DNA from: Baekduia alba
Lineage (GTDB): Bacteria > Actinomycetota > Thermoleophilia > Solirubrobacterales > Solirubrobacteraceae
DNA: 64,000 nt
Direction: 5' to 3'
Assembly: GCF_028416635.1 (NCBI RefSeq)
Contig: NZ_CP114013.1
Span: forward strand, 2,604,001 to 2,668,000
Below the pieces are notes generated by a model. The model worked only from the letters and a program-made list of their open reading frames with translations, was not told the origin of the DNA and made no database searches. The translations under genes were made by a program, and so were the position numbers. Positions 4,401 to 42,888 of the stretch are shown here, piece after piece (position 1 is the stretch's first letter; every line of letters starts with the position of its first letter).

Positions 4401-5601
4401 GCGCGACGTGGAGCGGGCGCTCGAGCGCCTGCTGTTCGAGAAGGACGGGATGTCGCGCCGGCGGTTCCTCGGGCGCTCCGGCGCCGCCGCGCTCGGCCTG
4501 ACCGCGCTGGGCTCGGCGCTGGCCGGCTGCTCGATCGAGGGCGAGGCCGCCCATCAGGTCAACGCCAAGAAGACCGTGACGGTCAACCACCCCAAGGCGT
4601 CGCTGGCCGGGCTCGTCTGGGCCAACTGGCCGCTGTACATCGACAAGAAGACGCTCAAGACGTTCAACGAGGAGCACGGCGTCAAGGTCAAGTACGTCGA
4701 GGAGATCAACGACAACTTCGAGTTCTTCGGCAAGGTCCGCCAGCAGCTGGCCCAGGGCCAGGGCATCGGGCGCGACATCGTCACGCTCACCGACTACATG
4801 GCGGCCCGCTGGGTGCGCGACGGCTACGTCGAGCCGATCGACAAGCGCAACGTGCCGAACATCAAGAACCTGGTCTCCAACCTGAAGTCGATCAACTACG
4901 ACCCGACGCGCACCTACACGCTGCCGTGGCAGTCGGGCGGCACGGGCATCGGCTACAACCCCAAGAAGACCGGGCGGAAGCTGGAGAGCGTCAACGACCT
5001 CTTCGACCCGGCGTTCAAGGGCCGCGTGACGATGCTGCAGGAGCCCTACGACACCGCGTGCCTCGTGCTGCTGGGCATGGGCATCGACGCGTCGAAGGCC
5101 AACATCGACCAGATTCTCAAGGCGATCGACAAGATCGACCAGGCCAAGAACGCCGGGCAGATCCGGCGTTTCACGGGCAACGACTACACCACGGACCTCG
5201 CGAAGGGCAACGTCTGGGTGGCGGTCGCCTACTCCGGCGACCTAGTGCAGCTGCAGGCCGACAACCCCGACCTCGAGTTCATCTACCCCAAGGAGGGCGC
5301 GATGTTGTTCACCGACAACATGATGATGCCCAAGCACGCCGAGCACTTCTACGGCGCCGAGGTGTTGATGAACTACTACTACGAGCCCGAGGTGGCGGCC
5401 AAGGTGGCGGCCTACGTCAACTACATCACCCCGGTGCAGGGCGCCAAGGAGGTCCTGCTCAAGACGGACCCCGACATCGCCAACAACCCGCTGATCTTCC
5501 CGCCCGACGACGTCCGCAAGCGGCTGTACCCCTACCCGAACCTCTCGCCCGCGGACGAGCGCGCGATGCAGAACGCGATGGCGAAGGTGACGGGGGCCTG
5601 A
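4393..5601 (+). CDS. potD: Spermidine/putrescine-binding lipoprotein, Tat-exported
   Basis: A 402-residue extracellular solute-binding protein. The N-terminus carries a twin-arginine motif SRRRFLG (21-27), a hydrophobic segment and a lipobox LAGC (43-46), so it is predicted to be a Tat-exported lipoprotein anchored at Cys46. The mature part has PotD/PotF-type features such as LVWANWPLYID near the start, GGTGIGYN in the middle and NYITPVQGAKE near the end. It starts inside the end of potA (ATGTCTGA), consistent with translational coupling. A later in-frame ATG (residue 20) could also serve as start and would still leave an intact Tat motif. Substrate range (spermidine, putrescine or another amine) cannot be told from sequence. 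Confidence 0.9.
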   Translation: MSERDVERALERLLFEKDGMSRRRFLGRSGAAALGLTALGSALAGCSIEGEAAHQVNAKKTVTVNHPKASLAGLVWANWPLYIDKKTLKTFNEEHGVKVKYVEEINDNFEFFGKVRQQLAQGQGIGRDIVTLTDYMAARWVRDGYVEPIDKRNVPNIKNLVSNLKSINYDPTRTYTLPWQSGGTGIGYNPKKTGRKLESVNDLFDPAFKGRVTMLQEPYDTACLVLLGMGIDASKANIDQILKAIDKIDQAKNAGQIRRFTGNDYTTDLAKGNVWVAVAYSGDLVQLQADNPDLEFIYPKEGAMLFTDNMMMPKHAEHFYGAEVLMNYYYEPEVAAKVAAYVNYITPVQGAKEVLLKTDPDIANNPLIFPPDDVRKRLYPYPNLSPADERAMQNAMAKVTGA

Positions 5602-28250: not shown

Positions 28251-29456
28251 ATGGCTCAGCCCACCGAGACCGCCGCGCAGCTGTTGCGCAACGCCCATCA
28301 GTCGCTGCCGGACGGAGGGCTGGCGGCGAAGCTCGCGCTGGCCGAGCGGGAGGGGCGCCAGCTGCGGGTCAAGCTCGGGCTGGACCCGACGGCGCCCGAC
28401 ATCCACCTCGGCCACACGGTCGTGCTCCAGAAGCTGCGCGAGTTCCAGGACCTCGGCCACCGCGTGGTCCTGATCGTCGGCGACTACACCGCGCGCGTTG
28501 GCGACCCGTCGGGGCGCTCGACGACGCGGCCGGTGCTCTCGGGCGAGGAGATCGACGCCAACGCCGAGACTTACCGCCAGCAGGCGTTCACCGTCCTGCG
28601 CTCCGATCCCGAGCTGCTCGAGGTGCGGCGCAACGGCGAGTGGCTGGACATGCGCGCCGAAGACCTCTTCCGCCTCGCGCGCGTGGCGACGGTGGCGCAG
28701 ATCCTGGAGCGCGACGACTTCGCCAAGCGCTTCGCCGCGCAGCAGCCGATCTCGGTGCTGGAGACCATGTACCCGCTGTTGCAGGGCTACGACTCGGTGG
28801 CGATCACCTCCGACGTGGAGCTCGGCGGGACCGACCAGACCTTCAACCTGCTGCTGGGGCGTGACGTGCAGCGCGCGTACGGCCAGGCGGAGCAGGTGAT
28901 CCTGACGATGCCGATCCTGCCGGGGATCGACGGCACGGACAAGATGTCCAAGTCGCTCGGCAACCACGTGGGCGTCGCCGAGCCGCCGGAGGAGCAGTTC
29001 GGCAAGACCATGCGGTTGCCCGACGACGCGATGGACGCGTGGTTCTCGCTGCTGTCGATCGCGCGGCCGCAGGGCGACGTCGGCCCACGCGACCTCAAGC
29101 GGGCGTTGGCGCGCGGCGTGGTCGCCCGATTCCACGGCGACGAGGCGGCGGCCGCGGCCGAGCGGCACTTCGAGCGGCTGTTCGTCACGCACGAGGCGCC
29201 GGACGACGTCGAGTCCTTCGTAATCGCCGGCGACGACGAGGGCATGGTCTTCCTGCCGGGGCTGATCGCCGAGGCGTTCGGCCGGTCGGGTTCGGAGGCG
29301 CGGCGCCTGCTGGCCCAGGGCGGGGTGAAGCTCGACGGCGAGGCCGTCGCCACCGACGCGCTCGCGCTCCCGGCCGAGCAGCTCGCCGGCCGCGTCCTGC
29401 AGGTCGGAAAGCGGAACTTCCGGCGCCTCGAGCGCAACGGCTCGCCGGCGGCGTAG
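28251..29456 (+). CDS. tyrS: Tyrosyl-tRNA synthetase
   Basis: A 401-residue class I synthetase charging tRNA-Tyr. The HIGH motif is HLGH (52-55), KMSKS is at 231-235 in DKMSKSLGNHVGV, and the C-terminus carries an S4-type RNA-binding domain (~335-395). The HLGH form and the DPTAPDIHLGH context indicate the TyrZ-like branch. TAGCAT (28236-28241) lies 9 bp before the ATG, so the transcript may start at the start codon. There is no T-box leader: only 36 bp separate it from the divergent PBP frame. A GC-rich hairpin follows at 29464-29481. Confidence 0.94.
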   Translation: MAQPTETAAQLLRNAHQSLPDGGLAAKLALAEREGRQLRVKLGLDPTAPDIHLGHTVVLQKLREFQDLGHRVVLIVGDYTARVGDPSGRSTTRPVLSGEEIDANAETYRQQAFTVLRSDPELLEVRRNGEWLDMRAEDLFRLARVATVAQILERDDFAKRFAAQQPISVLETMYPLLQGYDSVAITSDVELGGTDQTFNLLLGRDVQRAYGQAEQVILTMPILPGIDGTDKMSKSLGNHVGVAEPPEEQFGKTMRLPDDAMDAWFSLLSIARPQGDVGPRDLKRALARGVVARFHGDEAAAAAERHFERLFVTHEAPDDVESFVIAGDDEGMVFLPGLIAEAFGRSGSEARRLLAQGGVKLDGEAVATDALALPAEQLAGRVLQVGKRNFRRLERNGSPAA

Positions 29457-30094
29457 CCCCGTCGCGCGGCGGTCACCGCGCGCGAACCCTTGTCGCTGCT
29501 GGGTTGGGGCAACGCGCCAAAGGTTCGAACCAGGCTTCTTGACGACCTGGTCACTTCGCTGGTCGGCCCGTCGGGCACCATTGGGACGGTCCGGGCTGGA
29601 CCACTTGGCGGTTGCGCGCGGGGCCGTGCGGCGGATAGCCTTACGGCACAAGGGATCCGGTCCTGACCGGAGCTTGCCGGGGCGTCCCCGCGACGACCGG
29701 GCGACGCGCGGCTCCGAGCTGTGCGTATACTTCCGCTCAGCGGGGCAGCGACACGGCTTCCAGCCGGGCCGCACACCCGCCGCCGAGTGGTGCTAAACTG
29801 CTCGGCCCCGCTCCTTGAGCCCTCGGGCTCGTGGGGAGCGTCCTTTCGAAGGTGACCCCTTCCCGACAGGGCGCGACGGTCTTTGAAAACTCAACAGCAT
29901 GCGCGCCTTTCGACTCAGTCGGGTCGGAGGTGCGCGTCCAGGTTCGACCCCCGGATCTTCGCCAGCGGAGATCGCGGGGCTGAAAAAGAATCCCGTCATC
30001 CCTCGGTACGAGACGTGTATTGCTCGTGCCACATGAGGTTTGACAGCTCTTCGTATCCGGTGCGCTCTTCGGAGTGTGCCGGTGTGCAGTTCAC
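29457..30094 (+). other. Leader region of the rRNA operon
   Basis: 638 bp without a protein gene. It begins with a GC-rich hairpin after tyrS (GCGCGG 29464-29469 with CCGCGC 29476-29481). It then holds several possible -10 elements, TAGCCT (29636-29641), TATACT (29726-29731) and TAAACT (29794-29799). A GAGCCCTCGGGCTC dyad and the strand GGTCTTTGAAAACTCAACAG (29878 onward) follow. The latter contains a boxA-like TCTTTGAAAACT and pairs with the 16S-23S spacer at 31853-31876, making the RNase III-type processing stem around 16S rRNA. Open frames here are not coding. Confidence 0.8.
29726..29799 (+). promoter_or_regulatory. Candidate tandem rRNA promoters
   Basis: TATACT (29726-29731) and TAAACT (29794-29799) are the two best -10 hexamers in an otherwise very GC-rich stretch, 68 bp apart. 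Tandem promoters are usual for rRNA operons. Their -35 boxes are poor. A further candidate, TTGCGC (29612)-N18-TAGCCT (29636), lies upstream. Confidence 0.5.
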
Positions 30095-31642
<1,548 letters not shown>

Positions 31643-32070
31643 TAGGGAGTCCCTTGATGGGACCCTCATGGCACGGCGTCATCGCCGGCCTTGCGCCAGC
31701 ACTTCGGTGCCCGCGCAGGGAATCGATGCGATGACCTCCGACCATGGGGCCTAGTACGTCGACCGAACCTGGCCGGGCCAGCCGGATCTCCTTTCTTGGA
31801 GGTCCCACCGCGCTTTCGCGTGGTGCCACGCATCGTGGAGCTTGAGCCCGTGCATGCTGTTGAGTTTTGAGAGACCGCGCTCTGCGAGGAATCCCCTCGC
31901 GCGCACCTCTCGGCGGCCCTTGAAAACTGCACAGCAGCCACATGCCCGATCAGATCCAACGCTGGTCGGGCGTACGTGTCTCCCCTTCATCTTCGATGAG
32001 CCGGGGGAGACACACGGGTAATTCACCGAGTCGGGATCTCTATGCAGGTCCCGTCTCTTTGACGATCACC
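31643..32070 (+). other. 16S-23S internal transcribed spacer without tRNA genes
   Basis: About 428 bp. No Ile or Ala tRNA can be folded here. The sequence at 31853-31876 (CATGCTGTTGAGTTTTGAGA onward) is complementary to the 5' leader at 29878-29901, closing the 16S processing stem. A second strand near 31914-31945 (GGCCCTTGAAAACTGCACAG onward) is largely complementary to 35087-35118 after 23S, closing the 23S stem. The repeated TTGAAAACT may also act as boxA for antitermination. Hairpins such as TCTCCTTTCTTGGAGG lie between. Confidence 0.85.
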
Positions 32071-35062
<2,992 letters not shown>

Positions 35063-35138
35063 TTATTTTATATCGTCGTGAATTACACATGTGGTGAGCT
35101 GTGCGGTTTTGAGGGGCCGCCGGGATCTCTCGTAGATT

Positions 35139-35254
<116 letters not shown>

Positions 35255-35264
35255 TTAATGTCAG

Positions 35265-35290
35265 AAGAGCCGCCCCTCGGGGCGGCTCTT
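35265..35290 (+). terminator. Terminator of the rRNA operon
   Basis: AAGAGCCGCCCC and GGGGCGGCTCTT form an 11-12 bp stem with a minimal loop, 10 bp after 5S rRNA. A T-rich stretch (CTTCGTCATTCT) follows. It is the strongest terminator-like structure in the window and matches the end of the operon. Confidence 0.85.
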
Positions 35291-35494
35291 CGTCATTCTG
35301 GAGTCGTTTTTGGGGACGCGGCGCGGCCCCAGTCGGACTGGAGTGCCGCGACCTCGGACAGCCGTTCAGCGGTGGGTGCATCAGCCGTCGGTACAGCAGC
35401 CGAGCTCCCTGGCTTCTCGCGCCCGGGCCCGCGGCGCGTCCGTCGCGCCGGCCTGCCCTGGGCCGCGGGTCTTTTCTCGGCTTTCGCGACGCTT

Positions 35495-36361
35495 GTGGCG
35501 CTGCGTCATGCAACGATTCCGCGTCCTGTGCCAGCGCCGAATCTCCCTGCCCGCTTCGATCCTGAGACGTCGCATCAGTTGGAGTTGCTCGCGTTGCGCG
35601 CGTGGCCGGCCGGTGAGGTCGAAGAGGTCGAGGGGTGGCTGCTGCGCAGGACGGTCAGCGTGGATCGCCGGCGTTCCAACTCGCTGCTGCCGCCCGCCGA
35701 TCCGTCGGCCGCAGTGCGCACCCTCGGGGTCGCGCTGGCGACGGCGGAGCAGCTCGATTTCGCCCAGGTCGTCCAGGTCTCGCCGGCGGAAGGCCATCGG
35801 CGTCTGGACGCTGAGCTCGAGGGAAGAGGGATGGCTTCGGGTGGCGCCTCGCTCGTCCTCGCTGGGCCGCTCAGGGGCACCGCGTCGCCGGCTGCTGACA
35901 TCACTATTCAGGTCCAGGCTGGCCCGGCGCGGCCAGGCCCAGTCGCTTCACCGCCCGCGATCGCCGTGCAGCTCACCGACCTGAGCACCGAGTGGGTCGA
36001 GGCGTGGGCGGCGGTGAGCGGGATCGGCGGCATCCGAGAGACCGCGGACCTCGTGCTTTCGCAGCTTGTCGACCGCGGACGCTTCGCCTCCGCCGTCGAC
36101 ACTCGGTCCGGCGAGCCCATCGGCATCTGCATCGGCGTCGCCGAGGATGGATGGCTCGGCCTCTTCTCCCTCGGTGTCATCGAGCCTGCTCGCCGCGCCG
36201 GCGTGGCCACGATGCTCGTCGAGGCCCTCGAAGACTGGGCCGCAGCCCTCGGCGCCACCCGCACCTACCTGCAGGTGGAGGCCGACAACGACGGCGCCCT
36301 CGCCTTCTACGGCTGCCGCGGCTTCCACATCGCGCACTCCTACCACTACCGCTCCGGCTGA
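35495..36361 (+). CDS. GNAT-family N-acetyltransferase
   Basis: 288 residues if the GTG at 35495 is used. The N-terminal half (AWPAGEVEEVEGWLLRRTVS, then RRRSNSLLPP) resembles the degenerate first domain of tandem GNAT proteins. The C-terminal half (~165-287) holds the catalytic GNAT fold. There GLFSLGVIEPARRAGVATML is motif A (acetyl-CoA binding) and VEADNDGALAFYGCRGF is motif B. Substrate unknown. The open frame begins at 35258, but that overlaps the rRNA terminator; the true start lies near 35495 and is uncertain. The gene follows the rRNA operon with no visible promoter of its own. Confidence 0.75.
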   Translation: MALRHATIPRPVPAPNLPARFDPETSHQLELLALRAWPAGEVEEVEGWLLRRTVSVDRRRSNSLLPPADPSAAVRTLGVALATAEQLDFAQVVQVSPAEGHRRLDAELEGRGMASGGASLVLAGPLRGTASPAADITIQVQAGPARPGPVASPPAIAVQLTDLSTEWVEAWAAVSGIGGIRETADLVLSQLVDRGRFASAVDTRSGEPIGICIGVAEDGWLGLFSLGVIEPARRAGVATMLVEALEDWAAALGATRTYLQVEADNDGALAFYGCRGFHIAHSYHYRSG

Positions 36362-36588
36362 CGCCGCCGCCGGCGGCTCCGTCGCTTGGCGATCTGCCAG
36401 GGGAACTTCGGCGAGGGGCGGCTCGCGCATCGATGGCTCGAATGGCGCCGCTGGCCTCTCGCCGCAACTGGCTCGGCGCTCGACGCGACGTCGGCGCCCG
36501 AAGCCGGCGGGCTCGCACCGGTGCGCCGAGAAGGTGATGCGATCCGGCAACGCCGGGACGGTCGTGGCCGACTTGACGGGCCCGGCGG

Positions 36589-36840
36589 CAGGTTCCGGCC
36601 TGACGCGAACCGGCGGCCGGGGCTGCGGACGGAGCGGCGCTTCGGCGGGCGGCGCGCGGCGGACGCCCGGCGCAGCAGGTTTCGCCTGACGCGAACCGGC
36701 GGGCGCGCTGCGAACGGAGCAGCGTTCGGCCAGGCGGCGCGCGCCGGGCGCACCAGGTTTCCACCGCCGCGCGGAACGGTGGAGCGCGCCGCGGGTGGAA
36801 GTGGCGCTTCGCCAGGCGGCGGGCGTCGGGCGAAGCGCCC
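36589..36840. repeat. Imperfect GC-rich tandem repeats of about 80 bp
   Basis: CAGGTTCCGGCCTGACGCGA (36589), CAGGTTTCGCCTGACGCGAA (36677) and CAGGTTTCCACCGCCG (36755) begin units 88 and 78 bp apart; CGGAGC.GCGTTCGGC and GGCGGCGCGC recur within them. A final fragment forms the inverted repeat GGCGCTTCGCC (36803-36813) / GGCGAAGCGCC (36829-36839). Divergence between units indicates an old expansion. Confidence 0.65.
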
Positions 36841-36853
36841 TTGGTAACGCGCC

Positions 36854-36877
36854 GCGGGCCGCCTATTGGCGGCCCGC
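36854..36877. terminator. 10-bp stem hairpin, possibly bidirectional terminator
   Basis: GCGGGCCGCC and GGCGGCCCGC are perfectly complementary around TATT, followed by TCGCTGTTTG. It lies beyond the 3' end of the minus-strand ORF at 36963-37244 and could end that transcript. Confidence 0.5.
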
Positions 36878-36962
36878 TCGCTGTTTGCCCATCACGACAT
36901 GAAGCTCCCGGCGCATGTCCACGGCCTCCCAGCTGGGACATGCGTCATTGCTTGAGGAAAGG

Positions 36963-37244
36963 TCACCGCACGCTGGTGGACCTGCGAGGAAGACGCTGCG
37001 GGCGAGATGCCACTGGCGTCGTGCAGGAGTGCGCTCGGGAGGGCACCCCGCCGGGACGGCCCGCGCGTGAGGGCGCGCGGAGCGGACGGCGGTGAGGATG
37101 GGCCTCCGCGAGGTCGTCGACGGAGGCGCGCGGCGGCAGCTCATCAGCGAGCGTGGCGAAGGCGACGACCAGATCGACGGCACGCCGGACGGCTTCGCGA
37201 ACGGAACGCTTTGCCGGCCGGGGATCTGCGGTGGGGGAGAACAT
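36963..37244 (-). CDS. Small hypothetical ORF behind LexA-type boxes
   Basis: 93 codons. Residues ~13-47 (EAVRRAVDLVVAFATLADEL and following) have GC-rich third positions and an amphipathic helical look; the remainder is Arg/Pro-rich and less convincing. I recognise no family. TAGCTT (37254-37259) lies 9 bp before the ATG, matching the leaderless pattern of this genome. A GAAC-N4-GTTC palindrome overlaps the start itself, and another lies 36 bp further upstream. It may be a damage-inducible gene, a fragment of one, or not coding at all. Confidence 0.3.
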   Translation of the reverse strand: MFSPTADPRPAKRSVREAVRRAVDLVVAFATLADELPPRASVDDLAEAHPHRRPLRAPSRAGRPGGVPSRAHSCTTPVASRPQRLPRRSTSVR

Positions 37245-37297
37245 GTGTTCGCAAAGCTATGGGTCTGGTCGGACGGAAGAGGCAAGAACACGTGTTC
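37239..37297. promoter_or_regulatory. Two LexA/SOS-box-like palindromes
   Basis: GAACATGTGTTC (37239-37250) and GAACACGTGTTC (37286-37297), both followed by GCA and 47 bp apart. Both fit the GAAC-N4-GTTC box bound by LexA in Gram-positive bacteria and Actinobacteria. The first overlaps a predicted -10/start on the minus strand; the DUF389 remnant begins 113 bp to the right. Binding by LexA is inferred from the motif only. Confidence 0.55.
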
Positions 37298-37409
37298 GCA
37301 TCGGAGCGACCCGAGAATTTGGCTCTAGGACGCCAAAATTCGGCCCCGTCCGTGCACGCGATCTTGCATCGACCCAACGGCTCGCGCGAGGCGCGACGAA
37401 GGTCGGCCC

Positions 37410-38116
37410 GTGGTCCACCTCCGCATCGTCGCGCCCGCCGACCACGCCGCGCTCGCGCTCGCGCTCCTCGAGCCGATCGACTCCGTCGTCAACATCGTGC
37501 ACCTGCGAGGCGCCGCGCTGAAGCCGCAGGCGACGTGATCCTTGCCGACGTCGCGCGCGAGGAGGCGAGCGTCGTCATCATCCTCGTCGTCGGCGGCATG
37601 GTCGTCGGCCCCGAGTTCGGCCCGATCTCCGCCCTGTGCGTCGCGCTGGTCCAGCGGCGCGGCGACCTGGCGCTGCGCTCGCTCGTCGCGCTGCTGGTCG
37701 GCTTCCCGGTTGCGATCGCGGTCACGGTCGCCCTCGTCTGGATCTTCAAGGTCACCGACGTGACGCCCGACGCGTTCAGCTCCGACGACCACGGCCTGGC
37801 GCGGTCGATCGCCAACCCGGACTTCCTGGCGTTCTTCGTGGCCTTGTGCGCCGGCGCCGTCGGGATGCTCTCGCTGACGACCGCGAAGTCGGGCGCGCTG
37901 CTCGGCGTCCTGATCTCCGTGACCACGCTGCCGGCCGCGACCAACGTCGCGGTGACCGCCGTCTACGGCGACTGGGAGTCCTGCCGCGGCTCGGCCGAGC
38001 AACTGGTGCTCAACATCGCCGGCATCCACGTCGCGGGCGTGCTGACGCTGCTCGTCCAGCGCCGCCTCTACACGCGGCGGCGCGCCCGCCATCGCGCACG
38101 GATGCGGACGGCTTAG
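37410..38116 (+). pseudogene. Remnant of a DUF389 membrane protein (frameshift plus internal deletion)
   Basis: From GTG 37410 the frame reads VHLRIVAPADHAALALALLE, then SVVNIVHLRGAALKPQ, and stops at 37538. Restoring one G near 37529 continues it as GDVILADVAREEASVVI, which the open frame 37535-38116 carries. These are the conserved N-terminal strands of DUF389 proteins. The family then has a further segment and a first membrane helix before VGAMVVGPEFGP. Here the sequence jumps at about 37577 straight to ILVVGGMVVGPEFGPISALC, so some 80 residues appear to be missing. The remaining membrane region runs to the end. Decay therefore involves both a frameshift and a deletion. Confidence 0.75.
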
Positions 38117-38125
38117 CGGCGGCGG

Positions 38126-39235
38126 CTACCGCGTCGAGCCGAGCGACGACCAGACGTCCATCTTGGTCCGCACCCGGCCGATGACGTCGTCGGTGAACTC
38201 GGTCGTGCCGGCCTGGCCGCCGAGGTCGTGGGTCCGGACGCCGCGCGCCGTGGACTCCAGGACCGACTCGTAGATCGCGCGCGACGCGCGCTCGGCGCCC
38301 TCGACGCCCTTCTCCGCGGCGTAGTTCAGCACCGCGCCACAGGCCAAGATCATGGCCATCGGGTTGGCGATGTCCTTGCCTTGCAGCGCCGGCGCCGTGC
38401 CATGCGGGGCCTCGGCCATCGCGACCGTCGTCTTGAAGTCCTGGTCGAACGCCAGCAGGACTGACTCGGCGCCGGCGATCGAGCCGAACATCGGCATCAC
38501 GAGATCGCTGAGGCAGTCGCCGTCGCGGTTGAGCGCGGGGATCACGAGCGGGGAGTCGGCGGCGCCGGAGATCAGCCCCGCGTAGGTCGCGTCGATCAGC
38601 ACCGGCTGGTACCAGACGTCGGGATGGCGCTCGGCGGCGAGGTCCATCTCCTCCTTGAGCATCCCCTCGTAGACCGGCGACACGGTCCACTTCGGCCCGC
38701 CGTAGACCTTGCCGTTGAGCCGCTGCGCGGTCCGGAACGCGTACTCGGCGACCGCGGTGCACGTCCCGCGCGAGATCTTCTCGGTGCGGTAGGCGATCTC
38801 GTCGGCGCCGCCCTCGGAGCCCTCGCGCCACTGCTTGGCGCCGTAGGCGTCGTCGACCGCCATCCGGACGACCGAGATCGGCAGGTACACGCCGGCGACC
38901 GGGTTGATGCCCGGGATCCGCCGGCCCGTGCGGATGATGACCTTGCCGTCGACGCCCTCGCGCACGATGCGGTTCGGCGAGCCGACGTCGTCCTTGCCCT
39001 CGGGCGTGACGGTCGCGGCCTTGATCCCGAGACCGGAGGCGCGCATCGCGGCGGCGCTGTCCTCGACGACCTGGTTGTCCGTCGCGCGCCGGTTCTCGAG
39101 CGACAGGTCGTAGCGGTCGAGCGCGATCGGCAGCCCGACGACGTCGGGGTCCAGGACGCGCAGCGCCTGCTCGAGGAGCTCCTGCCCGGTCTCGTCGCCC
39201 TCGAGGATGGTGATCGTCAGCGGTTCGGTAGCCAC
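38126..39235 (-). CDS. Isocitrate/isopropylmalate dehydrogenase-family enzyme
   Basis: A 369-residue beta-decarboxylating dehydrogenase. It has NRIVREGVDGKVIIRTGRRI for substrate binding, a DATYAGLISGA stretch where metal Asp is expected, and PHGTAPALQGKDIANPMAMI for the cofactor loop. The sequence differs clearly from LeuB in this window and lacks its LRKGMGLYANLRP loop. Isocitrate, homoisocitrate or a tartrate-like acid are possible substrates. GTG 39235 is chosen over TTG 39244 because TACTTT (39243-39248, minus strand) lies 7 bp upstream, matching the leaderless pattern here. Its 3' end faces the DUF389 remnant. Confidence 0.8.
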   Translation of the reverse strand: MATEPLTITILEGDETGQELLEQALRVLDPDVVGLPIALDRYDLSLENRRATDNQVVEDSAAAMRASGLGIKAATVTPEGKDDVGSPNRIVREGVDGKVIIRTGRRIPGINPVAGVYLPISVVRMAVDDAYGAKQWREGSEGGADEIAYRTEKISRGTCTAVAEYAFRTAQRLNGKVYGGPKWTVSPVYEGMLKEEMDLAAERHPDVWYQPVLIDATYAGLISGAADSPLVIPALNRDGDCLSDLVMPMFGSIAGAESVLLAFDQDFKTTVAMAEAPHGTAPALQGKDIANPMAMILACGAVLNYAAEKGVEGAERASRAIYESVLESTARGVRTHDLGGQAGTTEFTDDVIGRVRTKMDVWSSLGSTR

Positions 39236-39295
39236 GGGCTCCAAAGTAGCTGCTTGCGCCGACCTCCGGCGCTCGGGCTACTCTCAACGGCAGCG

Positions 39296-39634
39296 ATGTC
39301 CGAGCACTGCACCTGGTGTGGCACGGCTGTCCCGGAGGACTCGGGCTTCCGCGTGGCCGAGCCGGAGGAGCGCCGCAAGGCCGTGTTCTGCCGCCTCGAG
39401 CACGTCGTCCCGTGGGTCATCCGCGGCGCGGAGTGGGAGGCGGGCCGGATCGTCGACGACGGCGAGCCTGACGACGCCCTCGGCCGCTGCGCGCTGTGCG
39501 GCGACCCGCTCGGCGTCGAGCGCGTCCTCGTCGTGCGCCACCGCGGGCAGCACCGGATCGGCGACGCGTTCTGCCGCCTGGAGCACCTCGAGGAGTGGGC
39601 GAAGGGCGGCGGCCGCTACAAGGCCGCGTCGTAG
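39296..39634 (+). CDS. Small Cys-rich protein with a duplicated zinc-ribbon-like motif
   Basis: 112 residues containing two copies of one pattern: CTWCG...FCRLEHVVPW in the first half and CALCGDPLG...FCRLEHLEEW in the second. Each half has C-x2-C and a later Cys followed by His, suiting a treble-clef or zinc-ribbon site. No known enzyme motif; a nucleic-acid or protein-binding role is possible. TACTCT (39279-39284) lies 11 bp before the ATG. Its 3' end overlaps the convergent MFS gene by 19 bp. I do not recognise a named family. Confidence 0.7.
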   Translation: MSEHCTWCGTAVPEDSGFRVAEPEERRKAVFCRLEHVVPWVIRGAEWEAGRIVDDGEPDDALGRCALCGDPLGVERVLVVRHRGQHRIGDAFCRLEHLEEWAKGGGRYKAAS

Positions 39635-40839
39635 ACGGGCGCGCGCGTCCCGAGCGTCCGCCAGCGCGTGGCCGCCAGGAGCGCGGAGAGCGCCGCGCCG
39701 CCCGCGCTGACCAGGAACGCCGCCTGCCAGTCGACGGCCTCGACGATGACGCCCGCGCACCAGTTGCCCGCCGCCAGGCCGATGACCAGGGACGTGATCG
39801 GCCAGGTGTAGGCCTCGGTCTCGGCACCGGCCGGCGCGACGTCGCCGGCGATCTGGTTGCCGGCCGTCAGCGTCGGCGCGATGCAGATCCCGGCCACGAG
39901 CGCGAGCGGGAACATCACCGCCAGCGACGGCGCGATCGCCAGCGGCAGGTAGCCGAGCGGGAGCAGCGCGGCAAGCCGCGCGTAGCGCCGCCCGGGCGCG
40001 CCCGACCACGAGCGCGCGCCGTAGGCCAGCCCGCCGATGGCGCTGCCCAGCGACCACGTCGCCACCAGCACGCCGGCGAGCCCGCGCGCCCCGTGGTCCT
40101 CGGTGAACGCCGGCAGCGTGACCTCCATCGCGCCGAAGCAGAACCCCATCGGCAGCGTGCACAGCACGAGCGTCCGGATGCCCGGTGAGCGCAGCGCGCC
40201 GAGCGCGCCGTGGCTGTCGGCGACGTCGCTGATCTGCCAGGTGCGGACGGGCGGCTGGACGAGGAACGCAGCCAACCCCACCAACAACAGGATGGGAGAG
40301 AGCGCGAGCGCGATCGCCGGGTCCCACAGCGCCGCCAGCAGCGCGGTCAGCAGCGGGCCGGTCACGAAGATCAGCTCGATGAGGACGCCTTCGAGCGCGA
40401 GCGCGGTCCCGAGCAGGCTCGGGTCCTCGTCCTTGAGGATCCGCGGCCAGAGCGACCGCGAGATCGAGCCCAGCGGCGGGATGAACGCCCCGGCCAGCGC
40501 GGCCAGGACCACCAACAACCCGACGGGCGCGTCGGACAGGCCGAAGAGCACCAACAACACCATGCAGGCCGCGTGCAGCAGCGACAGCGGCACGACGACG
40601 CCGGTCAGGCCGCGCCGGTCGATCAGCCGTCCGATGAACGGCGCCGTCACGCCGACCGCGATCCCGAAGGCGGCGGCCACCGCGCCCGCGGCCGCGTAGG
40701 ACCCGGTGTGCTCGCGCAGGAACAGGACGATCGCCAGCCCGTTGATGCCGATGGGCAGCCGGGCCGGGATCTCGGCCGTCAGCAGCGCACGGGCGTGCGG
40801 AGCGCGCAGGACGCGCGCGTAGCGCTCGCGGGCGCCCAT
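39616..40839 (-). CDS. MFS transporter
   Basis: A 407-residue integral membrane protein with about 12 hydrophobic segments in two halves. The loop between helices 2 and 3 reads GRLIDRRGLTGVVVP, the MFS signature region, and a longer polar segment (~195-215) separates the halves. It belongs to the drug-exporter-like branch; the substrate is unknown. Start at 40839; a longer open frame upstream overlaps the HD-domain gene and lacks membrane character. The end overlaps the Cys-rich gene by 19 bp. Confidence 0.82.
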   Translation of the reverse strand: MGARERYARVLRAPHARALLTAEIPARLPIGINGLAIVLFLREHTGSYAAAGAVAAAFGIAVGVTAPFIGRLIDRRGLTGVVVPLSLLHAACMVLLVLFGLSDAPVGLLVVLAALAGAFIPPLGSISRSLWPRILKDEDPSLLGTALALEGVLIELIFVTGPLLTALLAALWDPAIALALSPILLLVGLAAFLVQPPVRTWQISDVADSHGALGALRSPGIRTLVLCTLPMGFCFGAMEVTLPAFTEDHGARGLAGVLVATWSLGSAIGGLAYGARSWSGAPGRRYARLAALLPLGYLPLAIAPSLAVMFPLALVAGICIAPTLTAGNQIAGDVAPAGAETEAYTWPITSLVIGLAAGNWCAGVIVEAVDWQAAFLVSAGGAALSALLAATRWRTLGTRAPVYDAAL

Positions 40840-40880
40840 GGGGACAGGAGGGGGACCAGACGAGGCGGGTCTCGAAGCGG

Positions 40881-41522
40881 TCAGGCCGCTGGCTCGGGCG
40901 CGGCGTCGGCCGCGGCACCGCCGGTCCCGTCGTCGTCCGCGGCGCGCCCGTGGAGCTCGAGCTCGTCGGCGCGCTCCTCCAGCGAGGCGATCACGAACCG
41001 CAGGTGCTCGTCGAAGTCGACGCCCAGCGCCGCGGCGCCCTCGCGGACCTCGTCGCGGTTGACCGCGGCCGCGAAGGCCGGCGTCTTGAGCTTCTTCTTG
41101 ACCGACTTGGGCGTCATCCCATGGATGCCCTCGGGCCGCACGTAGGCGCACGCCACGATGAACCCGGACAGCTCGTCGACGGCGTAGAGCGTCTTGGCCA
41201 TGGCGCTCTCACGCGGGACGTCGAGGAACGTGGCGTGGCCGGCGATCGCGTCGACGATCTCGGGGTCGACGTCGCGCTCCTTCAAGTACCTCAAGATGGT
41301 CCGCGGGTGGCCGTTCTCGGTGTCGTCCATGTCCGCGAACCGCTCGTAGTCGGCGTCGTGCAGGAGGCCCGCGACGGCCCAGCGCTCCTCGTCCTCGCCG
41401 TTCTTGCGGGCATAGCCGACCATGGCAGCCTCGACCGCCAGGCAGTGCCTCCGCAAGGAGGGTGACTCGACCCATTCGGACAGGAGGTCCCAGGCCTCCG
41501 CCCGCGAAAGCTGCGACGACAT
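40881..41522 (-). CDS. HD-domain phosphohydrolase
   Basis: A 213-residue protein. The HD motif is GLLHDADYERF (~53-63), preceded by RRHCLAVEAAM (~24-34) with the first His and followed by IAGHATFLD and YAVDELSGF, giving the usual H-HD-H-D metal set. The acidic, Ala-rich C-terminus is probably disordered. Family members cut phosphate esters such as nucleotides. TAGGGT (41530-41535, minus strand) lies 7 bp before the ATG, suggesting a leaderless transcript. Divergent from murA over a shared 64-bp region where TACCCT on the plus strand may serve murA. Confidence 0.82.
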   Translation of the reverse strand: MSSQLSRAEAWDLLSEWVESPSLRRHCLAVEAAMVGYARKNGEDEERWAVAGLLHDADYERFADMDDTENGHPRTILRYLKERDVDPEIVDAIAGHATFLDVPRESAMAKTLYAVDELSGFIVACAYVRPEGIHGMTPKSVKKKLKTPAFAAAVNRDEVREGAAALGVDFDEHLRFVIASLEERADELELHGRAADDDGTGGAAADAAPEPAA

Positions 41523-41586
41523 GGCTGTTACCCTAGCCCAGCGCCCGCACCCCGCTTCGGGAGGCCGAACCGGGCGCTTCGACCGC

Positions 41587-42888
41587 ATGGAGAAGTTCGT
41601 CATCGACGGGGGCGCTCCACTGTCCGGCACGGTTGTGCCTGCCGGCAACAAGAACGCCGCCCTGCCCTGCATCGCCGCGTCCGCGCTGACCTCGGACGAG
41701 GTCGTCGTGCGCAACATCCCGCGCATCCGGGACGTGCAGGCGATGCTCGACCTGCTCGAGGACCTGGGCGCCACCGTGGAGTGGCGTGCGGAGCACGAGG
41801 TCGCCATTTGCGCCGCCGGCATCACGGCGGAGTCGAGCGTCGACCCGCGCATCTCCGCGCGCATCCGCGCCTCGTTCCTGCTCGCCGGCCCGCTGCTCGC
41901 GCGCTTCGGCCGCGCGGACATGCCGCCGCCCGGCGGCGACGTCATCGGCCGCCGCCGCCTCGACCCGCACCTGGACGCGTTCAAGGCGCTGGGCGCGCGC
42001 ATCGAGCAGCACGACCACACCATCTTGAAGCTGGCGGGCAAGCTCCGCGCGGGCGAGGTCTTCATGGACGAGCCGTCCGTGATGGGCACCGAGAACGCGC
42101 TGCTGGCCGCCGCGCTGACGCCGGGCGAGACCCAGGTCTTCAACGCCGCCTCCGAGCCGCATGTCGTCGACCTCGCCCGCATGCTGGTCAAGATGGGCGC
42201 CGACATCCGCGGCATCGGCTCCAACGTCCTGCACGTCACCGGCGCCGACACGCTCGGCGGCACGACGCACGACATCGGGCCCGACCACATCGAGATCGGC
42301 TCGTTCATGGCCATGGCCGGCATGACGGGCGGGGAGATCCGGATCAAGGACACCGAGCCCGACGACCTGCGGATGATCCGCCTGGTCTTCCGGCGCATCG
42401 GGCTGGAGACCCAGCTCGACGGCGCCGACGTCGTCGTGCCCGGCGACCAGAAGCTCGTCGTCGAGCGCGACATGGGCGAGCACACGTCCAAGGTCCAGGA
42501 CGGCCCGTGGCCCGCGTTCCCGGCGGACCTGACCTCGATCGCCGTCGCGCTCGCGACCCAGTCCGAGGGCGAGGTCCTCGTCCACGAGTGGATGTTCGAG
42601 TCGCGCCTGTTCTTCTGCGACAAGCTCATCTCCATGGGGGCCAACATCTTCATCGCCGACCCCCATCGCGCGCTCGTCCACGGGCCGCGGCGCCTGCGCG
42701 CCGCGCGCGTGGAGTCCCCGGACATCCGCGCGGGCATGGCGGTCCTGCTGGCCGCGTTGACCGCGGAGGGCCGCACCGAGATCGGCAACATCCGTCAGAT
42801 CGACCGCGGCTACGAGCGGATCGACGAGCGTCTCCGTGATCTGGGGGCGAGCATCGAGCGGGTCGCTGAACAGCCGGCATTGGCGTAA
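41587..42888 (+). CDS. murA: UDP-N-acetylglucosamine 1-carboxyvinyltransferase (Asp active site)
   Basis: A 433-residue enzyme adding enolpyruvate to UDP-GlcNAc, the first step of peptidoglycan synthesis. GNKNAALP (20-27) binds UDP-GlcNAc. The loop that in E. coli reads PGGCAIG is PGGDVIG here, so the catalytic Cys is Asp118. GTENALLAAALTPGET and the late GRTEIGNIRQIDRGYE follow. Asp at this place occurs in Mycobacterium and gives intrinsic fosfomycin resistance. An in-frame ATG at 41521 exists, but 41587 fits the conserved N-terminus. Confidence 0.93.
   Translation: MEKFVIDGGAPLSGTVVPAGNKNAALPCIAASALTSDEVVVRNIPRIRDVQAMLDLLEDLGATVEWRAEHEVAICAAGITAESSVDPRISARIRASFLLAGPLLARFGRADMPPPGGDVIGRRRLDPHLDAFKALGARIEQHDHTILKLAGKLRAGEVFMDEPSVMGTENALLAAALTPGETQVFNAASEPHVVDLARMLVKMGADIRGIGSNVLHVTGADTLGGTTHDIGPDHIEIGSFMAMAGMTGGEIRIKDTEPDDLRMIRLVFRRIGLETQLDGADVVVPGDQKLVVERDMGEHTSKVQDGPWPAFPADLTSIAVALATQSEGEVLVHEWMFESRLFFCDKLISMGANIFIADPHRALVHGPRRLRAARVESPDIRAGMAVLLAALTAEGRTEIGNIRQIDRGYERIDERLRDLGASIERVAEQPALA

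Follow-up and report, generated by a model that had tools for sequence, protein, structure and literature searches.

Introduction

Short, lineage-specific division inhibitors under LexA repression include SulA, YneA, SosA, SidA and DivS, of which YneA, SosA and SidA are membrane proteins, and ChiZ is a cell-wall and division factor that combines a LysM domain with a membrane segment. The question of how actinobacteria beyond the mycobacteria and corynebacteria halt division after DNA damage forms the background to a stretch of 64,000 nucleotides from Baekduia alba (the window), in which two LexA boxes and a candidate PafBC element stand at the start of a small open reading frame (ORF) of 93 residues. 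As far as can be judged from sequence, it is likely that a DNA-damage-controlled promoter, repressed by LexA and activated by PafBC, drives a conserved microprotein gene at this locus.

In Mycobacterium tuberculosis, three SOS boxes and a PafBC motif are tied in one report to the operon neighbouring lexA, which is printed there as Rv2019c-Rv2017c and is taken here as the Rv2719c operon, and the PafBC motif near lexA is described as pointing away from lexA (PMC8151990). The lexA messenger RNA (mRNA) of the same organism is described as leaderless, with translation beginning at the transcription start, and as being under SOS control (PMC2897130). The mycobacterial RecA-independent promoter element is given as tTGTCRgtg-8-TannnT (PMC5656591), and PafB is reported to engage the -26 motif and PafC to contact domain 4 of sigma-A (PMC11804915). 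According to a LexA study in Streptomyces venezuelae, the SOS division inhibitors known from elsewhere have no clear homologues in Streptomyces, and an initial search mentioned in that study suggested a lack of conservation of the M. smegmatis PafBC motif in this genus (PMC9380542). A full-text literature search for LexA and Thermoleophilia returned only work on Antarctic soils and sediments, and among the matches listed by a search on Solirubrobacter or Conexibacter, LexA, the SOS response and PafBC there was no title on a Thermoleophilia SOS regulon, and a paper on a Rubrobacter genome came closest.

Results

LexA boxes at the small ORF

The small ORF occupies 36963..37244 on the minus strand of the window and is predicted to encode a near-leaderless, basic microprotein of 93 amino acids. 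An earlier note on this DNA had described twin boxes 47 bp apart, the first containing the ATG of the ORF and the second lying near the expected -35/-45, and each of these placements was verified. Box 1, GAACATGTGTTC (GAACACATGTTC on the coding strand), spans 37239..37250 and holds the ATG at 37242-37244, and box 2, GAACACGTGTTC, spans 37286..37297, that is from -53 to -42 relative to the ATG. Both are perfect actinobacterial LexA boxes of the GAAC-N4-GTTC type, and they are the only two sites of this type in the window. As the shuffled window contained on average 0.76 such sites and two or more in 16 of 100 shuffles, the bare count of two boxes is weak evidence; the weight of evidence lies in the exact box words and their clustering and not in the box count.

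The 12-mer GAACAYGTGTTC has 6 sites in the 5.86 Mb genome, which is a single contig, and its reversed control has none. The four sites away from the small ORF are located at lexA, at a gene for an ImuB-like polymerase, at dnaE2 and at another small ORF beside ligD. At lexA (TIGR00498, 227 bits), the box GAACACATGTTC lies 35 bp ahead of the first matched LexA residue, and the operator word at the small ORF is therefore identical to the word at lexA in the same genome. The ImuB-like Y-family polymerase matched Pfam IMS above the cut-off and the NCBIfam polymerase IV models far below it; dnaE2, with the box at the gene start, scored 936 bits against the error-prone polymerase model (cut-off 939) and exceeded the cut-off for TIGR00594; and ligD, which adjoins the box-bearing ORF, was identified by TIGR02776 above the cut-off. 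The ORF beside ligD (L046:5322-5651) has 110 residues and a LexA box over its start, and no match to it was found in Pfam or NCBIfam. With the looser word CGAAC-N4-GTTCG, 17 genomic sites were obtained compared with 5 in the reversed control, so that these sites are in part background; they include dinB (PRK03858, 592 bits) and recN (TIGR00634, 448 bits). The looser sites also include a LexA box immediately 5' of the gene for a radical SAM protein to which intein and LAGLIDADG models matched weakly (L049:2585-4600). Because its sites stand at lexA, the polymerase genes, dinB and recN, the GAAC-N4-GTTC type is assigned as the LexA box of the Baekduia alba genome. The suggestion that the small ORF is a tightly LexA-repressed gene thus gains in silico support from the 12-mer sites at lexA, the imuB-like gene and dnaE2, as well as from the operators at orthologous loci described below.

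A composite promoter at the small ORF and at lexA

On the coding strand the promoter reads TTCCGTCCG-N10-TAGCTT-TGC-GAACACATGTTC. It consists of a candidate PafBC -26 element, TTCCGTCCG (37270..37278, minus strand), a -10 element, TAGCTT (37254..37259, minus strand), and box 1, and no -35 element is evident. The mRNA is predicted to start at ~37247-37249, ~3-5 bases ahead of the ATG. The earlier note had called the ORF leaderless with box 1 at its transcription start; the predicted start indeed falls within the region of box 1, but because TAGCTT places it a few bases before the ATG, near-leaderless is the more accurate term.

Of 399 genomes from the class Thermoleophilia, 63 have the arrangement CCGTCCG-N17,22-GAACACATGTTC, and the reversed control gave 0 in every genome. 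In a sample of the phylum, it was present in 6 of 396 genomes, one of which (G517) is among the 358 outside the class. Among named genomes, 96 stretches with the composite promoter were obtained, of which 80 were taken as loci, and the records were mostly from Solirubrobacter, Conexibacter, Paraconexibacter and other Solirubrobacterales or Thermoleophilia. Records from outside the class were named as Coriobacteriia, Jiangella, Mumia, Rhodococcus and metagenome-assembled genomes labelled Azoarcus, Burkholderiaceae and Alphaproteobacteria, and behind the box in these out-of-class records no recognisable ORF of the microprotein family was found. When the 70 distinct sites from the locus search and the class scan were classified by a fixed rule, 32 proved to be small ORFs carrying the C-terminal motif and 3 small ORFs with the helix alone, 22 belonged to lexA and 13 were of other kinds; in the 80 named loci, which hold 78 distinct sites, the corresponding numbers were 30, 3, 19 and 26. 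On these counts, the microprotein gene and lexA are assigned a common predicted promoter design. The spacing between CCGTC[CT]G and TAnnnT in 72 promoters was 10 bases in 59, 9 bases in 11 and 11 bases in one.

Other genes were also seen behind promoters of this kind. At two loci in family f5, a composite promoter precedes a small ORF of another kind, in which QLCLF or QLTLF lies close to the start (L191:4911-5195 and L243:2291-2557), and no Pfam family was found for either. A DUF222 protein is encoded behind a LexA and CCGTCCG promoter at L211:1787-2662, and a C-5 cytosine DNA methylase (Pfam) behind a composite promoter in one genome of family f7 (L064:1572-2765). At L057 (~4480-4540), a composite promoter recognised by eye reads CCCGTCCG-N10-TACAGT-CC-GAACACGGGTTC. 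Five records named as Coriobacteriia (L190, L206, L242, L255 and L265; Enorma, Olsenella, Thermophilibacter and Collinsella) have a near-identical promoter with an ORF of 21-24 residues at the box ATG.

The CCGTCCG element and PafBC

At the small ORF and at lexA, GTC begins 15 bases before the -10 element, which is the same offset as in the published mycobacterial element. The genome encodes a fused PafBC of 689 residues that could be aligned over residues 11-683 to the solved PafBC 6sj9 (E 8e-26), and its WYL and WCX domains scored above the cut-off. From the upstream regions of 20 recA genes of families f1 and f2, which were picked by hand and not by presence of the element, 13 carry CCGTC[CT]G-N9,11-[TC]AnnnT; the controls gave 0/20 on the other strand, 0/20 for reversed sequences and 134/19,056 for random pieces. 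In other families the element was found at 6 of 20 readable recA loci, 10 of the 30 having been dropped as not orientable. The recA gene of Baekduia alba, which is outside the set of 20 from f1 and f2, is preceded by TTCCGTCCG-N10-CAAACT. The pattern TCCGTCCG-N10-TAnnnT occurs at 3 genomic sites, compared with 1 in the control, and one of the three is at the start of recC, identified by Pfam Exonuc_V_gamma.

At imuB, dnaE2 and dinB the LexA box itself appears to provide the -10 element (GAACAT), with GTC 15 bases upstream. The rule 'GTC 15 bases before box' marks 4 of 40 rows, namely these three genes and L056, where no SOS gene was recognised. For the 110-residue ORF beside ligD, GTC begins 16 bases before the box-supplied -10, and at recN GTCCG directly follows the box and the -10, TAGACC, is imperfect. 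From the offset of the element, its direction and the company it keeps, we strongly infer that the microprotein gene is under PafBC control through CCGTCCG, short of proof because only GTC.G is held in common with mycobacteria. Together these promoters point to CCGTCCG-N10-TAnnnT, an element that the earlier note does not mention, as a second and activating damage input beside LexA.

The second box and an upstream inverted repeat

Related small-ORF promoters, 48 in number, were picked by a loose rule that also took in a few unrelated ORFs such as that at L217. A second GAAC-N4-GTTC was found in 16 of them, the present one included, at -53/-52 (5 promoters), -43 (7) or -104 (4), and twin boxes thus recur. 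The -53 and -43 positions are about one helical turn apart, and at -43 the box abuts CCGTCCG.

Farther upstream, at -124 from the ATG, lies the inverted repeat TGCAAGATCGCGTGCAC (37352..37368, minus strand), a candidate operator that is likewise absent from the earlier note. Inverted repeats of the TGCAAGATCnnnTGCAG type were present in 27 of the 48 small-ORF promoters, in 0 of 24 lexA promoters and in 0.19% of base-shuffled sequences. There are 23 copies of the exact word TGCAAGATCnnnTGCAG, distributed over 21 of the family's 111 genomes, with 0 in the reversed control, and 13 of the 23 copies precede a microprotein ORF; the copy in Baekduia alba ends in C and is outside this count. The idea that the repeat is the operator of a divergent gene was set aside, as it is kept at 6 of 8 loci at which the predicted upstream gene is co-directional. 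Six of the other ten TGCAAGATCnnnTGCAG loci were scanned with Rfam and two of them had cyclic di-AMP (c-di-AMP) riboswitches just downstream. At L316 and L325, TGCAAGATCnnnTGCAG stands shortly ahead of c-di-AMP riboswitches, one of which precedes a gene for a peptidoglycan-binding transglycosylase-like protein. Four proteins encoded at TGCAAGATCnnnTGCAG loci were scanned and corresponded to an L,D-transpeptidase, a transglycosylase-like peptidoglycan binder, a PcsB-like coil below the cut-off and one protein that obtained no name. These neighbours, a small sample inspected post hoc, hint that TGCAAGATCnnnTGCAG may be read by an envelope regulator.

The small ORF as a conserved gene

A DNA query of 521 bases from the locus retrieved 20 loci, 16 of which, own genome included, were scanned (L037 and L039-L041 lie outside that scan); the search listed 50 of 61 genomes, and most of its weak rows were GC-rich chance matches and were not used. 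The LexA box is retained at 14 of the 16 scanned loci (own genome and 13 relatives), and L032 and L035, which are without the box, were dropped as chance DNA matches. In all 14 box-bearing loci the ORF begins at the ATG inside GAACACATGTTC, so that orthologues, for which the earlier note had proposed a search, exist and keep the box over the ATG. The ratio of nonsynonymous to synonymous substitution rates (dN/dS) was 0.33-0.56 in all 15 pairs from six genomes. Alignments of 26 and 31 members, the former after 12 of 38 ORFs had been dropped and the latter with 30 relatives chosen by hand, display a conserved N-terminal helix RRAVDLVVAFATL as well as HPHRxPLR, R-x-G and C then x-x-P. In the window protein the C-terminal motifs found in these alignments are HPHRRPLR (residues 49-56) and RPGGVPSRAHSCTTP (residues 63-77), encoded at 37014..37100 on the minus strand. 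Thus, the minus-strand ORF of 93 residues looks like a real gene and is improbable as a chance ORF, and by sequence comparison both the regulation and the conservation of the microprotein gene are well supported.

The window microprotein has an isoelectric point (pI) of ~11.8, and the 38 family ORFs, which range from 59 to 204 amino acids, are mostly basic (pI 9-12; exceptions are L108 with 5.7 and L128 with 7.8). AlphaFold2 predicts a single helix for residues 15-35 (predicted local distance difference test, pLDDT, 76.8) in a model with a predicted template modelling score (pTM) of 0.30, and for this reason the microprotein is probably a flexible peptide with one helix and an extended chain. 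The statement that the product matches nothing recognised was borne out by scans of Pfam, NCBIfam, PHROGs and PADLOC, none of which gave a family match for the window protein; the PHROG scan took in five family members, and among 31 members there were single weak matches to PF04655 and PF17692, which are unrelated Pfam families. A phage or plasmid origin was rejected, as tblastn against phages and plasmids gave no match and the PHROG scan was empty. A membrane division inhibitor was rejected on hydropathy only, no 19-residue stretch in the 38 ORFs having a mean above 1.59. The best PDB matches of the family profile were three chains of the ribosomal protein bL28 (E 0.0048-0.035); kinship with bL28 was rejected when the order's own bL28 was compared with the family profile and gave a probability of 0.1% (30 loci, L291 and L308 giving no usable reading), and arginine-rich words are held responsible for the matches.

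Genomic neighbourhood

The small ORF is located downstream of a ribosomal RNA (rRNA) operon (16S 30095-31641, 23S 32070-35063, 5S 35139-35255), between genes for a GNAT-type acetyltransferase and a DUF389 protein. The genes for DUF389 (37410-38116, plus strand; PF04087), an isocitrate/isopropylmalate dehydrogenase (38126-39244; family match checked) and MurA (41422-42888; TIGR01072 above the cut-off) all lie within 6 kb of it. The DUF389 gene is apparently frameshifted near 37530, the PF04087 part being read in a different frame from the first ~43 codons, and either a sequencing error or a pseudogene may account for this. At 16 of 20 loci examined a neighbour is DUF389-like, dehydrogenase-like or MurA-like, these labels having been given by eye and the three families having been checked in the window only; relatives mostly keep the ORF in this one genomic setting. 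An Rfam scan of 29000-42000 matched nothing except the rRNAs.

Discussion

In the undamaged cell, LexA on box 1, which covers the transcription start and the ATG, and on box 2 would block RNA polymerase. The CCGTCCG element, at -26 and in place of a -35 element, would be the recognition site for a PafBC-type activator in its single-stranded-DNA-bound state. Upon damage, RecA-triggered cleavage of LexA would lift the block and PafBC would recruit the polymerase; as both release and recruitment would be needed, the gene would be tightly off unless both signals are present. LexA over the transcription start combined with an activator site at -26 would thus give the logic of a gene that is silent until damage occurs. 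Because the promoter follows the design of the lexA promoter and the start codon lies inside a LexA site, the microprotein is probably made mainly upon DNA damage, the near-leaderless mRNA then giving rise to a peptide that is basic, for the most part extended and marked by the motifs HPHR, R-x-G and C-x-x-P.

Several observations weigh against control by LexA and PafBC of a conserved microprotein gene. The recA gene of Baekduia alba has no perfect box and carries the one-mismatch word GAACGTGCGTAC upstream together with its CCGTCCG element; the check proposed in the earlier note, a search for the box before recA, lexA and dnaE2, was therefore positive for lexA and dnaE2 (and also for the imuB-like gene, dinB and recN) and failed at recA for want of an exact box. 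At nine of the looser genomic boxes no promoter arrangement of these kinds was recognised by rule, and one further box, at L057, fits by eye. The published mycobacterial consensus and CCGTCCG agree at GTC.G alone, and the PafC-type helix-turn-helix of the fused PafBC scored 29.6 bits, below the 32-bit cut-off. The exact composite promoter is confined to 63 of the 399 class genomes, an exact second box is missing at the three places in 32 of the 48 promoters, the exact box 2 word was seen in Baekduia alba and G004 only, and 21 of the 48 gave no match to the inverted repeat. On the side of the protein, the shared start MF is no independent evidence, since the box letters themselves spell ATGTTC; codons 35-60 differ from those of G006 and G004 at 4 and 3 sites, respectively, each difference altering the amino acid and none being silent; the C-terminal end evolves rapidly; and the AlphaFold2 model is poor.

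That LexA controls the gene and CCGTCCG is read by an alternative sigma factor or by another activator of damage genes is unlikely, though it is the rival to be taken most seriously. The restricted agreement at GTC.G would fit such a reader, as would a second WYL regulator with PafC similarity encoded in the genome, but the exact offset from GTC to the -10, the presence of the element at the recA, lexA and recC promoters and the full-length PafBC in the genome all favour PafBC. An explanation in which the transcript acts as a regulatory RNA, with the ORF encoding a short leader peptide or being spurious, is quite improbable: the variable ORF length, the weakly conserved C-terminal end, the lack of silent changes in codons 35-60 relative to the two nearest relatives and the box-dictated MF start would agree with an RNA, whereas dN/dS below 0.6 in 15 of 15 pairs, protein motifs retained across families f1 and f2 and the Rfam result argue for a protein. 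Service of the boxes to the plus-strand DUF389 gene is the least credible explanation. Box 2 does lie ~113 bp ahead of the likely DUF389 start, but the -10 and CCGTCCG face the small ORF, and promoter and ORF are retained together beside MurA-like or dehydrogenase-like neighbours and where the upstream gene is co-directional.

As to what the microprotein does, we tentatively propose that it is a soluble effector of a DNA-damage checkpoint and holds back division, envelope growth or replication during repair, on the basis of the analogy to the M. tuberculosis gene and to SOS microproteins and of the weak link to peptidoglycan genes. This role is ranked ahead of a replication modulator that would bind the sliding clamp, or another part of the replisome, through a C-terminal Q-x-C-L-x-P-L and block or switch polymerases, which is improbable. 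Some C-termini, among them QPCLWEG and QPCLTPL, look similar to clamp motifs, and the two f5 small ORFs with the same promoter have QLTLF and QLCLF near their starts; however, the Q is not conserved, the Baekduia alba member ends in AHSCTTPV, which departs from a QLxLF-type motif, and the f5 proteins, neither of which is named by Pfam, are by eye unlike the microprotein family. With slightly more reserve than the checkpoint role itself, a wider picture may be drawn of a new SOS checkpoint microprotein family, ancestral in Solirubrobacterales, with three inputs at one promoter: from LexA over the start codon, from PafBC through a diverged -26 element and from an envelope regulator through TGCAAGATCnnnTGCAG, which the gene would have in common with peptidoglycan enzymes.

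The locus provides a candidate damage microprotein across the whole order Solirubrobacterales and, in CCGTCCG-N10-TAnnnT, a concrete and searchable candidate PafBC element at recA, lexA, recC and the microprotein gene. If these readings are true, the microprotein would couple DNA damage to cell-wall growth, and CCGTCCG would define a PafBC regulon outside mycobacteria.

Compared with SulA, YneA, SosA, SidA and DivS, the microprotein is likewise short, lineage-specific and predicted to be LexA-repressed, but a membrane helix of the YneA, SosA and SidA type is absent from the 38 family ORFs as judged by hydropathy. The lexA/Rv2719c (ChiZ) locus of M. tuberculosis, as described in the cited report, is similar in combining a damage-inducible small gene with several SOS boxes and a PafBC motif; it differs in that the motif there points away from lexA, whereas the Baekduia alba element points into lexA. 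No sequence likeness between ChiZ and the microprotein was seen, though no comparison was run. With the mycobacterial PafBC/RecA-NDp promoters, in their published form, the present promoter has in common GTC 15 bases before TAnnnT, occurrence at recA and the -26 position; the core there is tTGTCRgtg, in contrast to CCGTCCG with an overlaid LexA box in Baekduia alba. Finally, in comparison with the leaderless lexA reported for M. tuberculosis, the Baekduia alba start codon lies inside the operator itself, and the gene that begins there is an unrelated small one.
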